A program made the translations under genes and the position numbers. From assembly GCF_001939115.1 (NCBI RefSeq), contig NZ_MQTZ01000063.1:1-38291 (forward strand): a stretch of 38,291 nucleotides of DNA. Direction: 5' to 3'. Under the pieces are notes generated by a model. It saw only the letters and a list, made by a program, of their open reading frames with translations, was not told the origin of the DNA and searched no databases. Every line of letters begins with the position of its first letter. The stretch's first letter is position 1. The stretch is from Leptolyngbya sp. 'hensonii'. GTDB lineage: Bacteria > Cyanobacteriota > Cyanobacteriia > GCF-001939115. This document shows, piece by piece, positions 2,091 to 7,573 of this stretch.

Positions 2091-4616
2091 ATGAACTTCC
2101 ATCGGTTGAGCAGACATGGTTTCGTGGCAGGGCTGGTGACCGTGACGATCGGCCTCTCCAGCCTGGTCCCCCTGCAGGCCCAGTCCCCCGATACCCTAAA
2201 GACTTTTTACCAGCAGACGATCGATACTTTTGACAAAAATCTAACCGCAGCCCGCCAGAGCAAGCAACGCTGGCAGGAAGTGGATGTGCTGAATGGGGCC
2301 GGAATCGCTTACCGCTATTTCGGCAACTACCAGAAGTCGGTTGAGGTGCTGCAACAGGGCCTGACGATCGCCCGTGAGATTAAAGACGCAGGTCGAGAAG
2401 ATCTGATCCTACGGGAACTGGCCGCCACCTACAGCAAACTGGGGGATTACCTGGGCATCAAATTCTATGAGCAGCAACTGCAATCCCTCAAGTCGAGTGG
2501 GAATTCTGCCAGCCGGGGAGCTATTTTGCGGAACCTGGGGCTGGCCTATTTGCAGAGCGGCAACTTTCTCAAGGTCATCGAGGTATACGAACAGTATGTG
2601 CCGATCGTCCGGCAGGGTCAGAACCCCCTGGAGGAAGAGATTGCCCTCAGCATCCTGGGCGCAGCCTACCGCACCCTGGGGGAAAAGGGGAAGGCAGCAG
2701 CCATCCTGGAACAGCGGTTGGCCCTGGCCCGCCAGACGAAAAACAGTCAGACCGAATTCCAGATCCTGAGTGAACTGGCGGTGATTTACCAGTACAGCAA
2801 CCAGAGCCAGAAAGCCCTAGCCCTCTATCAACAGATGTTGCAAACGGCCCGGCAGTCAGGGAATAGGACCCAGGAGTCCAATATCCTGTATCAACTAGCC
2901 CTGCTCTATACCAGTTTGAACAACCTGCCCCAGGCTCAGACGGCACTGGAACAAGAGCTGGCGATCGTCCGCCAGGGAAATGACCTGTTCACCCAGGGAT
3001 TGGTGCTGGAAGGGCTGAGCCAGGTTCGGGCACTGGGGGGCAATCTGGAGGCTGCGATCGATCTACAGCAACAGGCGATCGCAGCCTATCGCAGCTTCAA
3101 GCAGGACAGCAAAGAGACCAACCCTTCGGCAGCCACAGCCCTGGGCCGATTAGGGCTCTTGCAATTTCGGGCCAGGCAATTCCCAGAGGCCGAGACCACC
3201 CTGCAGGCATCCCTCCGGGAATACCAGGCGTTTCTGGCCCAGGTTCTGGGCAATGCCAATCTGTTTGCCATCAGCCGGGATGATTTGAATCTCTCCCTGC
3301 GGGAACAACTCAGCGATATCTACCGCACCTTACAGCAGATTTATCTGGCCCAAAATCGGAGTGATACGGCTCTGGAAGCGGCAGAAGAGGGAAGGGCGAG
3401 AGCTTTTATCGAACTCCTAGCAGGTGGTAAAAGCTCCCCTGAGGCGATCAAACTTGCTACCATCCAACAGGTCGCCAAAGCCCAGCAAGCAACTCTGGTG
3501 GAATACACGGTTCTCTATGACAGCAGTCCCTTTGCTCAATTTCGATCGGGAAACCAACAACCCCAGGAAACCGGGCTGCTGATCTGGGTCGTGCGACCCG
3601 ACGGCACCGTTACCTTCCGGCAGGTTAATCTGAAAAGGGGGGCGAAAGTTCCGACCCTGGCCGATCAGATCATCAGCACCAGAGGCAGCATTGGTGCGGG
3701 AAACCGGGGTTTCAGCTTCAATGAAGATCCGAACCTGGTGCGGGATGCGATCGCCAGCACGGGCAACACAACCCCCAATGCAGGATTGCGCCAGTTGTAT
3801 GAGCTGCTGATCCAGCCGGTCGCCGATCAGCTCCCCCAGGACCCCAAGGCTCGGGTTATCTTCATTCCCCAGGACTCCCTCTTCCTGGTGCCCTTCCCAG
3901 CCCTGCAGGATGCTTCTGGCCGCTATCTGATCGAAAAACATACGATTCTAACAGCACCAGCGATCCAGGTGCTGCAGGCGACCCGCAAGCCTTCCAGCTC
4001 TGGGAACGTCCTGGTTGTGGGCAATCCCACCATGCCCACCGTCCGGTTCCAGATCGGCACACCACCCCAGCAACTGGCCAGCCTTCCCGGTGCTGAACGG
4101 GAAGCCCAAGCGATCGGTGCCCTATTCAACACCCAACCCCTCCTGGGAAAACAGGCCACGGAAACCACCGTGACAACCAGGATGCCCCAGGCCCGTATTA
4201 TCCATCTCGCTACCCATGGCCTGCTGGATCGGTTCATTGGCTTCCAGAGTGCCCTGGCCTTTGCGCCCTCCGGTCAGGAGGATGGCTTACTCACCGCACG
4301 GGAGTTACTCAACCTGAAGCTGACGGCTGATCTGGTCGTTCTCAGTGCCTGCGATACAGGCCGGGGCCGGATCAGTGGCGATGGGGTGGTGGGCCTGTCC
4401 CGATCGCTCCTCTCCGCTGGGGCAGCCACCGTGATCGTCTCCCTCTGGAAAGTGCCGGACACGCCCACCGCTTTTTTGATGACGGAATTTTATCGGAACC
4501 TGAACCAGGGGTCTGATAAAGCCCAGTCCCTACGGCAGGCTATGCTAGCAACGTTGAAGCAATATCCCTCCCCTCAAGACTGGGCCGCCTTTACCCTAAT
4601 CGGACAGGCGGAATAA
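2091..4616 (+). CDS. Exported TPR-CHAT caspase-like protein (1)
   Basis: This 841-residue protein has an N-terminal signal peptide (basic start, hydrophobic core, cleavage near PLQAQ-SP around residue 31), an array of tetratricopeptide repeats over about residues 35-400, a linker, and a C-terminal CHAT domain over about residues 530-841. CHAT domains are caspase-like (clan CD) peptidases. The His-Cys dyad is visible as H709 in LATHG and C754 in LSACDTG. The ATG at 2091 is chosen over the in-frame ATG at 2043 because GGGGAG precedes it and it places the signal peptide at the N-terminus. The substrate is unknown, and export beyond the cytoplasmic membrane is inferred. It is followed 62 bases later by a paralogue. 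Confidence 0.85.
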   Translation: MNFHRLSRHGFVAGLVTVTIGLSSLVPLQAQSPDTLKTFYQQTIDTFDKNLTAARQSKQRWQEVDVLNGAGIAYRYFGNYQKSVEVLQQGLTIAREIKDAGREDLILRELAATYSKLGDYLGIKFYEQQLQSLKSSGNSASRGAILRNLGLAYLQSGNFLKVIEVYEQYVPIVRQGQNPLEEEIALSILGAAYRTLGEKGKAAAILEQRLALARQTKNSQTEFQILSELAVIYQYSNQSQKALALYQQMLQTARQSGNRTQESNILYQLALLYTSLNNLPQAQTALEQELAIVRQGNDLFTQGLVLEGLSQVRALGGNLEAAIDLQQQAIAAYRSFKQDSKETNPSAATALGRLGLLQFRARQFPEAETTLQASLREYQAFLAQVLGNANLFAISRDDLNLSLREQLSDIYRTLQQIYLAQNRSDTALEAAEEGRARAFIELLAGGKSSPEAIKLATIQQVAKAQQATLVEYTVLYDSSPFAQFRSGNQQPQETGLLIWVVRPDGTVTFRQVNLKRGAKVPTLADQIISTRGSIGAGNRGFSFNEDPNLVRDAIASTGNTTPNAGLRQLYELLIQPVADQLPQDPKARVIFIPQDSLFLVPFPALQDASGRYLIEKHTILTAPAIQVLQATRKPSSSGNVLVVGNPTMPTVRFQIGTPPQQLASLPGAEREAQAIGALFNTQPLLGKQATETTVTTRMPQARIIHLATHGLLDRFIGFQSALAFAPSGQEDGLLTARELLNLKLTADLVVLSACDTGRGRISGDGVVGLSRSLLSAGAATVIVSLWKVPDTPTAFLMTEFYRNLNQGSDKAQSLRQAMLATLKQYPSPQDWAAFTLIGQAE

Positions 4617-4678
4617 AGATCAGGAGCCGTACAGGGTATGGTACAAGTCCGTATAAAAACTGCCCCAGGAGTATAGCC

Positions 4679-7573
4679 ATGCTGTCCAGATCAATCGGTA
4701 TTGCGGCGATCACCCTGTTGATGCTTGCATCCCCTGCTATTCCTCCCCTGACCGAACTGGGATGGCTGTCCCTGGTGCAAGCTCAGCCCCCCACTCCCTC
4801 TCTGGAAGACCAGATCACGGAGGGGGTCTATCTGAACCAGCAGGGCTGGGATGAGTTGATGCGAGCCGACACGAAAGCGGCCCTAGCTACCTTTGAGAAA
4901 GCCCTGGCCATCTTTCGGAAGACGGGAGCTCGGGGCGGTGAGGCCATTTCCTTGAATCGGATTGGCAAGGTCTACTATTACACCCGACAGTTTGAGCAGG
5001 CTGCCCAGTATTACCAGAACTCCCTCAAGATCTGGCGAGAGATTGGAGGACCGGACGGGCGATCAGGGGAATGGCAGGTTCTGTCTGACACCATAGACCT
5101 GTATATGGAGATGAGCCGCTATGAGGAGGCGATTCAGGTCAACCTGCAGGCCCTGGCGATCGTGCGGGAACTGAAAGATCAGAACAGTGAACCTTTCCTG
5201 CTCGATACCCTCGCCCGTTCTTACTTTCGGCTCGGCCAGTATGCCCAGTCCCTACGGGCTTACCAGGAAGCCCAAAAGATCTATCAGGCCAGCAATGATG
5301 TAGCCGGTGAGGCGGCTGCCCTCAGCAATATGGGGGTGATTTACACCAACCAGGGAGAATATGCCCAGGCCCTGGATGCCTACCAGAAGGCTCTGGATCT
5401 GTACGTAACCCGTCTGACGGCTTACCAGGGGGCGAAAGCAACGGTTCTGAATAACATGGCGGGGGTTTACTTCAGTCTGGGACAGTATCAGAAGGCATTG
5501 CAACTGTCCCGAGAGGCCATGAAAATTCTCAAGCGCCTAGGGGTCGTTGCCCCTAAAGCTACCTTTGGTAATGTCACCTTGCTATATGACAACCTGGGGC
5601 AATTCTCCCAGCCCGTGACTTTTCGCTTTCAGGAACAGGCAAGTCGCCAGAACGTGGGCGATGCCTTTGGCAAGGATGATCCAGTCAGTAGAAGTCAGGG
5701 TGCTACCCTGACCAATATTGGCCAGATTCTGCTGAATGCAAATCAACCAGATCAAGCACTACAGGCCCACCAGCAGGCATTCGCGGTTTATCAGGAAGCT
5801 GCTAATCTGTCCGGGCAGGCGATCGCCCTCAGCAATATCGGTTACGTTTACGAGATTGAAGCCAAGCATGAGCAGGCTCTGAAACAGTATCAGCAGGCCC
5901 TGGAGATCTATCGCAAGCTGGGCGATCGCGCCGGGGAGGGGGTAGCCCTCAGCAATATCGGCAAAAGCTACAGCAATCTGAAGCGCCCGGATCAGGCCCA
6001 GTCCTTCTATCAGAAGGCGCTAGTGCGCCATCGGGAGGTGGGCGATCGAAGCAATGAGGGCACCACGCTGCGGAACCTAGGCCAACTATTGCTTCAGAAC
6101 GGTCGCTATGCCGAGGCGAGTCAGACTCTGCTTCAGGCTGTAACAGTGGTGGAGTCTTTGCGCCCGGGGCTGAGTGATGCCAATAAGGTATCTATTTTTG
6201 AGACCCAATCCCGCACCTACAGCTATTTGCAACAGGTGCTGTTGGCCCAGAATAAAATTGCAGCCGCCCTGGAAATTTCGGAACGGAGTCGGGCCAGGGC
6301 CTTCGCGGAGTTGCTGGCCCAACGCCTGGTAGAGACTAAGACCTCTCCCACCATCCCAGCCCTATCCTCAGAGCAAATCCAGAATATTGCCCAAAGTCAT
6401 CAGGCCACCCTGGTGGAGTATGCCCTGATCGAGGAGGATGTGCCGGTCCAGGGCATACCGGAGCCCCATGCAGTCAGGCTCTTGATCTGGGTAGTACAGC
6501 CCACTGGCAAGATCGCCTTCCGCGAGGTAGACCTGCAGGCATGGAAACAGGCCCAGGGGAAAAATGGAGCCTTCCTGGAAGATCTGGTCAAACTCAGCCG
6601 GGTCTCCGTAGGAGCCACGGGTCGGGGATTCACCTTCAATGAAAATCTAGAGGAAACGAAAAATTTTCCCACGCCGACCACAGCTGGATCTAACAAACAG
6701 CGGTTGAAACAACTGTATGACCTCCTGATCCAGCCGATCGCAGACCTGCTCCCCCCCGACCCCAATGCCAGAGTTGTCTTCGTCCCCCAGAAGTCCCTTT
6801 TTCTGGTACCGTTCCCGGCTTTACTAGACGGAAGCGGGAAATACTTGGTCGAAACCCATACCCCCTTAATCACCCCTTCCATTCAAATTCTGCAACTGAC
6901 GCGCCAGCAGCGAGAACAGCTAACTGGAGCCCAGGCTGCGGCTATCCAACCTGAAGAGGTGCTGATTGTCGGCAACCCCACCATGCCCACCATTCGGTTT
7001 AATCCAACTGCACCCGCCCAACAATTACCAGCGTTACCGGGGGCAGAAAAAGAGGCCAGGGACATTGCTACCCTTTTAAAAACGGAGGCCCTGACGGGAA
7101 ATCAGGGAAGCAAGACCACAGTGCTGACCCGCATGGTCACAGCCCGGATCATTCATCTGGCCACCCATGGATTGCTGGATGACTTTAAACGGGTCGGCGT
7201 CCCAGGGGCGATCGCCCTGGCTCCCTCTGGCCAGGATGACGGGTTGCTGACCACCGGCGAGATCCTCAACCTGAAACTGCAGGCTAATCTGGTTGTTCTG
7301 AGTGCCTGTGACACAGGCCGAGGCCGGATCACAGGGGATGGGGTGATTGGGTTGTCCCGATCGCTAATAGTCGCAGGCACCCCGAGTGTGATTGTCTCCC
7401 TCTGGCAAGTTCCAGATATCCAGACCGGATTCCTGATGACCCATTTTTACCAGAACCTGAGCAGGAACTCTGACAAAGCCCAATCCCTACGGCAGGCTAT
7501 GCTGGCGACGTTGAAGCAATATCCCGATCCAAAAGATTGGGCCGCCTTTACCCTGATCGGAGAAGCCGATTAA
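4679..7573 (+). CDS. Exported TPR-CHAT caspase-like protein (2), paralogue of preceding gene
   Basis: This 964-residue protein has the same plan as its upstream neighbour: a hydrophobic signal segment with likely cleavage at VQAQ-PP (about residue 36), a longer TPR array (about 50-500), then a CHAT domain to the C-terminus. The dyad residues are H830 in LATHG and C877 in LSACDTG. The start is supported by CAGGAG seven bases upstream of the ATG. The last 30 codons are almost the same as in gene 1 at DNA level (for example CCCTACGGCAGGCTATGCT in both), while the TPR parts differ. This fits tandem duplication with later divergence or gene conversion. The two genes probably form one transcription unit. 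Function is unknown beyond predicted peptidase or scaffold activity. Confidence 0.85.
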   Translation: MLSRSIGIAAITLLMLASPAIPPLTELGWLSLVQAQPPTPSLEDQITEGVYLNQQGWDELMRADTKAALATFEKALAIFRKTGARGGEAISLNRIGKVYYYTRQFEQAAQYYQNSLKIWREIGGPDGRSGEWQVLSDTIDLYMEMSRYEEAIQVNLQALAIVRELKDQNSEPFLLDTLARSYFRLGQYAQSLRAYQEAQKIYQASNDVAGEAAALSNMGVIYTNQGEYAQALDAYQKALDLYVTRLTAYQGAKATVLNNMAGVYFSLGQYQKALQLSREAMKILKRLGVVAPKATFGNVTLLYDNLGQFSQPVTFRFQEQASRQNVGDAFGKDDPVSRSQGATLTNIGQILLNANQPDQALQAHQQAFAVYQEAANLSGQAIALSNIGYVYEIEAKHEQALKQYQQALEIYRKLGDRAGEGVALSNIGKSYSNLKRPDQAQSFYQKALVRHREVGDRSNEGTTLRNLGQLLLQNGRYAEASQTLLQAVTVVESLRPGLSDANKVSIFETQSRTYSYLQQVLLAQNKIAAALEISERSRARAFAELLAQRLVETKTSPTIPALSSEQIQNIAQSHQATLVEYALIEEDVPVQGIPEPHAVRLLIWVVQPTGKIAFREVDLQAWKQAQGKNGAFLEDLVKLSRVSVGATGRGFTFNENLEETKNFPTPTTAGSNKQRLKQLYDLLIQPIADLLPPDPNARVVFVPQKSLFLVPFPALLDGSGKYLVETHTPLITPSIQILQLTRQQREQLTGAQAAAIQPEEVLIVGNPTMPTIRFNPTAPAQQLPALPGAEKEARDIATLLKTEALTGNQGSKTTVLTRMVTARIIHLATHGLLDDFKRVGVPGAIALAPSGQDDGLLTTGEILNLKLQANLVVLSACDTGRGRITGDGVIGLSRSLIVAGTPSVIVSLWQVPDIQTGFLMTHFYQNLSRNSDKAQSLRQAMLATLKQYPDPKDWAAFTLIGEAD

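Follow-up and report, generated by a model that had tools for sequence, protein, structure and literature searches.

Two adjacent, putatively exported TPR-CHAT proteins of Leptolyngbya sp. 'hensonii' belong to a large cyanobacterial family with links to two-partner secretion

Two genes of Leptolyngbya sp. 'hensonii', here called A and B, encode putative cysteine peptidases that, in the reading we favor with moderate confidence, are gated by a TPR solenoid, work in the periplasm or at the cell surface, and are old paralogues of each other. We infer that both proteins are exported, probably by Sec, as soluble periplasmic or surface proteins; that the TPR solenoid would be the binding and gating part and would select the partner; and that the CHAT domain would act as a His-Cys cysteine peptidase of the caspase/separase fold. 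A and B would share this chemistry and probably differ in their partners or substrates, since their TPR parts evolve fast and differ from one another.

Bacterial CHAT and caspase-like proteins are usually treated as cytoplasmic defense or cell-death enzymes. An exported cyanobacterial branch, if real, would move proteolysis of the caspase type to the cell surface, with possible roles in adhesin processing or between cells. A and B appear to be an ordinary pair in a large family, a probable extracytoplasmic form of TPR-CHAT protein, and provide an intact and simple example of it, with one cysteine each and no two-partner-secretion (TPS) domain. The tie of the family to two-partner secretion is wider than the pair itself, and is the part worth following.

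Gene organization and domain architecture

The window, that is, the whole stretch of 38,291 nucleotides analyzed here, is one contig (C63) of a 5.94 Mb genome, and the relatives that we found by sequence were cyanobacterial. An ORF check and Pfam searches confirmed the coordinates, the open reading frames and the TPR-plus-CHAT architecture that a sequence-only reading had assigned to A and B, as well as the His-Cys dyads it had named, H709/C754 in A and H830/C877 in B (Table 1). In both proteins a signal-like segment precedes the TPR repeats and a linker, and the CHAT domain forms the C-terminal end; the Pfam models returned were those of CHAT, of TPR-type repeats and of other repeats and nothing else, with PF12770 scoring 250.3 bits in A and 225.4 bits in B against a curated cut-off of 24 bits.

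The genes are arranged head to tail. GGGGAG lies directly 5' of the start at 2091 that we use for A (an alternative in-frame ATG at 2043 would lengthen the protein by 16 residues), and AGGAG lies 5' of the start of B. No terminator-like site was found within the gap between the genes, and co-transcription appears likely from the sequence. Downstream lie purD and then a HAMP-PAS histidine kinase gene; a search of the window for TPS, ShlB and DUF928 genes found none. When regions of three other genomes (same class, other families) were searched for conserved gene order, none of the window genes besides A and B was matched beside CHAT genes, the two histidine-kinase matches in those regions reflecting the general kinase domain only. 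At the other end, positions 1-2000 have a G+C content of 41.5% as compared to 51-57% in the rest of the window, and hold an acyltransferase piece at 208-708 and, at 1089-1889, an ORF that has no Pfam match; this segment is possibly acquired DNA close to the contig end.

Table 1. Coordinates of genes A and B and of their features in the window
Feature	Position	Strand	Evidence
Gene A, putative exported TPR-CHAT protein, 841 aa	2091..4616	+	ORF, Pfam
A signal-peptide-like segment, residues 1-30, ending LVPLQA/QS	2091..2180	+	Sequence, heuristic; cleavage site read by eye
A TPR solenoid, ~residues 33-443	2187..3419	+	Pfam TPR_12 and others; paired helices of structure model m09fde8be24a3
A CHAT domain, residues 566-839	3786..4607	+	PF12770, E 3.5e-74
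A putative catalytic His709 codon (HLATHG)	4215..4217	+	Sequence, aligned columns
A putative catalytic Cys754 codon (LSACDTG), sole Cys of protein A	4350..4352	+	Sequence
A last 30 codons, set against B	4524..4613	+	Codon comparison
A-B gap, 62 bp	4617..4678	.	Terminator-like site search
Gene B, putative exported TPR-CHAT protein, 964 aa	4679..7573	+	ORF, Pfam
B signal-peptide-like segment, residues 1-35, ending LSLVQA/QP	4679..4783	+	Sequence, heuristic; cleavage site read by eye
B CHAT domain, residues 675-962	6701..7564	+	PF12770, E 1.3e-66
B putative catalytic His830 codon	7166..7168	+	Sequence, aligned columns
B putative catalytic Cys877 codon, sole Cys of protein B	7307..7309	+	Sequence
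B last 30 codons, set against A	7481..7570	+	Codon comparison

Active site and predicted fold

The His and Cys of the dyad are among the invariant columns in an alignment of 35 relatives, and the dyad is kept in 94 of the 102 CHAT domains examined. A structure model of protein A (m09fde8be24a3, built from 35 sequences; pLDDT 82.8, pTM 0.78) has a low-confidence segment at residues 1-31, in which the signal-like segment forms a separate helix, then the TPR solenoid to about residue 443, and then the CHAT fold. Foldseek placed DdvA (E 6.3e-16) and Csx29 at the top of the solved structures. After realignment Csx29 led (7y9x_B, Z 27.0, rmsd 12.2 over 517; 7y84_C, Z 26.0, rmsd 8.1 over 454), followed by DdvA (8rw5, Z 24.4, rmsd 13.2 over 610) and the separase protease domain (5fby_A, Z 22.9, rmsd 3.8 over 316). 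With an E threshold of 1, a sequence search of the PDB with the CHAT part matched only DdvA (E 8.7e-6) and Csx29 chains (E ~0.01). These fold matches suggest that A works like a TPR-gated peptidase of the caspase/separase fold, and we regard it as fairly probable that A and B are active peptidases.

Comparison with known systems

Csx29, the protease of the type III-E CRISPR system Craspase, resembles A and B in its TPR-then-CHAT order and His-Cys dyad, and is the best fold match. According to PMC10028731, it is gated by the Cas7-11-RNA complex and activated upon binding of target RNA, and its H615 and C658 are required for cleavage of Csx30. A and B differ in having a signal-like N-terminus and in the absence of a Cas7-11 gene beside them: their neighbors are the acyltransferase piece, the ORF without a Pfam match, purD and the histidine kinase gene. 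The Csx29 model NF041237 gave A 30.1 bits as compared to a cut-off of 300 and did not list B. On this score and the absence of an adjoining Cas7-11 gene, we rejected an identification of A and B as Csx29.

DdvA of Myxococcus xanthus (8rot, 8rw5), the top match of A in Foldseek and of the CHAT part among PDB sequences, likewise has a TPR and CHAT region, and this part is located outside the cytoplasm. In the PDB it is titled a transmembrane anti-sigma factor; Pfam found no anti-sigma part ahead of the TPR-CHAT region in A and B, which have a signal-like segment followed by TPR repeats. The inactivation of DdvA is triggered by an unknown external signal, as stated in PMC4374960. HetF of Anabaena is, like A and B, a cyanobacterial CHAT and TPR protein and a putative protease. 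A figure legend in PMC8406250 names its CHAT, TM and TPR parts, with CHAT at the N-terminus (aa 1-555) and, as we read it, TPR last; the order is TPR-then-CHAT in A and B, and with CHAT C-terminal they are not HetF. Full separases share the caspase-type protease domain of A and align with it across solenoid and protease, but are eukaryotic and only 11-15% identical to A in structural alignments. Separase is regulated by securin and cleaves cohesin.

Export signals and cysteine content

To both proteins the sequence-only reading had ascribed a role outside the cytoplasmic membrane. Their N-termini begin with basic residues, continue into a hydrophobic stretch and close with an A-Q type end. Both were positive by a home-made signal rule, which asks for a positive N-region, a hydrophobic 10-mer and small residues at -3/-1, and which was also positive in 53 of 237 neighboring ORFs. 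Across the family, a signal-like N-terminus was found in 68 of 93 CHAT proteins of at least 300 aa, as compared to the same 53 of 237 for other ORFs at these loci. The loci were gathered by a scan with A peptides and by taking stretches of the own genome that surround CHAT genes, and so form a non-random sample.

Independently of the signal rule, the cysteine content of the family points the same way. A and B each contain one cysteine in the whole protein, at the catalytic position, and a single cysteine after residue 50 is found in 9 of 17 TPR-CHAT proteins of the own genome and in 27 of 44 from other genomes, all chosen by a motif that contains the catalytic cysteine. Non-catalytic cysteines occur at 1.45 per 1000 residues in the own-genome proteins and 1.11 in the others, versus 8.02 in 110 neighboring ORFs. 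TPR sequences are generally poor in cysteine, so this depletion may be partly compositional; it is not a TPR matter alone, however, since the 61 proteins have 0.67 cysteines per 1000 residues in the CHAT domain plus linker and 1.58 in the TPR part. Six proteins of the CHASE2-CHAT type (three of the six confirmed with Pfam), in which the CHAT part is expected on the cytoplasmic side, have four or five cysteines in their first 400 residues. A nucleophile that is the only cysteine fits an oxidizing compartment, where it would not be lost to wrong disulfides. Together with the TPS fusions and neighbors described below, the signal-like N-termini and the single cysteine lend support to the export reading and to a protease-type active site, and we consider it very likely that A and B are exported.

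Association of the family with two-partner secretion

The N-terminal TPS domain PF05860 is absent from A and B by Pfam, but it recurs in their relatives. We compared TPS and CHAT matches in 11 cyanobacterial genomes, namely our own and ten picked from 38, mostly for their CHAT or TPR-CHAT matches. Among the CHAT matches listed (150 of 201 in the ten genomes and 28 of 33 in our own, set against all 76 and all 9 TPS matches), 25 of the 85 TPS domains have CHAT in the same ORF, with at least one such ORF in each genome; one ORF here means equal open-frame length and a nearby start, and four of the 25 were checked with Pfam. Of the other 60 TPS domains, again among the CHAT matches listed, 30 have a CHAT match no more than 10 kb away versus 3.8 expected under uniform placement, and 16 have one within 5 kb versus 1.9. 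As a control counted by eye, none of the 85 TPS domains has any of the 56 C14 matches within this 10 kb distance (~1.6 expected on the same basis).

Individual loci give the same picture. Three CHAT domains of the own genome (two on contig C12, one on C52) share an ORF with an N-terminal TPS domain; on C49 a TPS gene lies 12 bp 5' of an A/B-type TPR-CHAT gene, C43 carries the series TPS-ShlB-CHAT, and C20 the series CHASE2-CHAT, DUF928, TPS, TPR-CHAT. In Nostoc linckia (L130), ShlB, TPS and TPR-CHAT genes are consecutive, the last with 42% identity to A. In G024, a genome from another family of the same class, the closest relative of B (55% identity over residues 31-963, locus L131) is directly preceded by a TPS-TPR-CHAT ORF (L131:9901-13890) whose TPR and CHAT parts are A/B-like. 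The same locus contains a WD40 protein with a signal-like start (L131:8475-9566) between two TPR-CHAT genes.

The TPS-CHAT and TPS-TPR-CHAT proteins belong to the same CHAT family as A and B, and differ from them in the N-terminal TPS domain and in having about three cysteines: all four fusions examined (the three own-genome proteins and L131:9901-13890) have a cysteine pair in mid-protein besides the catalytic cysteine, and one has a fourth near its start, the pattern expected for a secreted protein with one disulfide. The family of A and B probably works with, or as, TPS exoproteins. A TPS-related role of A and B themselves, whose link to these proteins is indirect and runs through the closest relative of B and through clade mates, is a tentative proposal. 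Similarly speculative is a cyanobacterial surface system of caspase-fold peptidases in which TPR-CHAT proteins would reach the periplasm, TPS-fused or TPS-paired members would be taken over the outer membrane, and both would cut proteins of the envelope or of neighboring cells; A and B would be differently targeted periplasmic members with a single catalytic cysteine. In the one literature library searched, we found no paper that combines the CHAT domain with two-partner secretion, or CHAT domain, hemagglutinin and cyanobacteria jointly; the accessible portions of PMC8406250, PMC10907252, PMC8283722, PMC7517822, PMC4374960 and PMC10028731 mention neither exported TPR-CHAT proteins nor the TPS link.

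Relationship between A and B

The sequence-only reading had described near-identical C-terminal ends and had proposed a duplication with gene conversion of the catalytic part. In aligned codons, A and B share 28% amino acid and 44% nucleotide identity in the TPR part, 39% amino acid identity in the linker, 69% of both in the whole CHAT part, and 87% amino acid (26 of 30 residues) and 84% nucleotide identity in the last 30 codons, where exact DNA runs of 20, 18 and 17 bp bear out the long runs reported. High likeness of the ends therefore stands, but 'near-identical' is somewhat strong for 26 of 30 residues. With Met and Trp left aside, 24 of these residues are identical and 17 of the 24 use the same codon, where codon usage would predict 9.7. 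Divergence along the genes is uneven; the contrast between domains follows a family-wide pattern in which CHAT is conserved and TPR diverges fast.

A recent local duplication with catalytic ends kept alike by gene conversion would account for these identities, for the finding that A and B are each other's best own-genome CHAT match (69% amino acid identity), and for the rank of the pair, third among 153 own-genome pairs by identity of the last 30 codons (18 of 30 CHAT matches taken, out of 33 in the genome, had the A/B-type motif and were compared). Synonymous codons tell against it. The same codon is used at 96 of 184 identical non-Met/Trp residues of the CHAT part, and permutation of these 184 positions gave P 0.038 for the last-24 window, which was picked post hoc, but P 0.40 for the best window anywhere in the domain and P 0.30 for the longest identical codon run; the shared end of A and B is thus no more than chance and protein conservation would give. 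Nor do A and B behave as recent copies. The CHAT part of A is as near to a G024 protein (L131_5232; 66%, 386 bits) as to B (66%, 381 bits), and the TPR part of B has its best match in G024 (L131_13926; 49%, 473 bits), ahead of all own-genome matches. A and B do not pair as sisters in a tree of 63 CHAT sequences, where they are separate twigs in an unresolved own-genome group; this tree has weak resolution, with stars on 20 of its 60 inner branches, includes one very long row (L116_1_3216), and draws its other-genome rows from proteins with the LSAC[DNE]TG motif and a domain of more than 200 residues. Adjoining CHAT genes are also common, with at least one further CHAT-model ORF in the fetched stretch at 16 of 42 loci found with A in named genomes. 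On codon windows, identical run, pair ranking, part-wise best matches and tree, we rejected conversion between A and B as unsupported and hold recent duplication with conversion to be quite improbable. These data suggest that A and B are old paralogues, not recent copies, within a large cyanobacterial family.

A separate group of three dispersed own-genome TPR-CHAT paralogues, at C41:439589 (L145), C20:124631 (L154) and C24:2464 (L146), has CHAT parts that are 81-89% identical and TPR parts that are 51-71% identical, in discordant order: L154 and L145 share 89% in CHAT and 56% in TPR, L154 and L146 83% and 66-71%. The last 30 codons of the C24 and C20 paralogues are 98.9% identical in DNA. This trio provides stronger candidates for gene conversion or domain swapping than A and B.

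Alternative functions

Exported CHAT proteins might instead be scaffolds or adaptors, that is, TPR platforms whose dyad is kept for the fold or is inactive in the periplasm. Some members do appear to function without catalysis, as eight of the 102 CHAT domains lack the dyad, five of them beside a member that retains the cysteine motif; moreover the nearest solved TPR-CHAT structure apart from Craspase, that of DdvA, names an anti-sigma factor in its title and not a protease. Against this stand the invariance of His and Cys across the aligned relatives, the shedding of nearly all other cysteines, and the association of dyad loss with a distinct short type of ~470-490 aa, TPR-less in the one scanned. 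We judge a scaffold role unlikely. Still less likely is that A and B are cytoplasmic stress, cell-death or anti-phage effectors comparable to Craspase or to CHAT proteases of defense islands, a reading that the fold match to Csx29 and the frequent proximity of C14 caspase-like genes to CHAT genes would favor, but that the signal-like N-termini, the cysteine depletion, the low score with the Csx29 model and the neighboring purD and histidine kinase genes oppose. PADLOC gave matches of TPR type and one weak match, none of them to a CHAT model; this is weak evidence, since PADLOC contains described systems only. On the N-termini, the cysteine depletion, the PADLOC result and the neighbors, we rejected the defense-island reading.

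Variants within the family

The eight short CHAT proteins without the dyad are L089:6245-7675, L104:6163-7593, L094:6369-7835, L097:5094-6497, L116:7800-9209, L120:1729-3177, L123:1091-2554 and L125:1760-3199; the one that was scanned lacks TPR. At L089, L094, L097, L104 and L116, the next listed downstream CHAT ORF has the LSAC cysteine motif, and such neighbors are possible decoy or regulator pairs.

In three CHASE2 proteins (L135:3349-5745, L092:3171-5705 and L093:457-3006) an N-terminal, degenerate CHAT domain has FNSC in place of LSAC, and the L135 gene adjoins DUF928, TPS and TPR-CHAT genes. Among the CHAT matches listed, at least 16 of 56 C14 caspase-like genes lie within 10 kb of CHAT genes and several within 0.5 kb, as counted by eye in genomes that include G002, G014, G017, G021, G022, G024 and G026.
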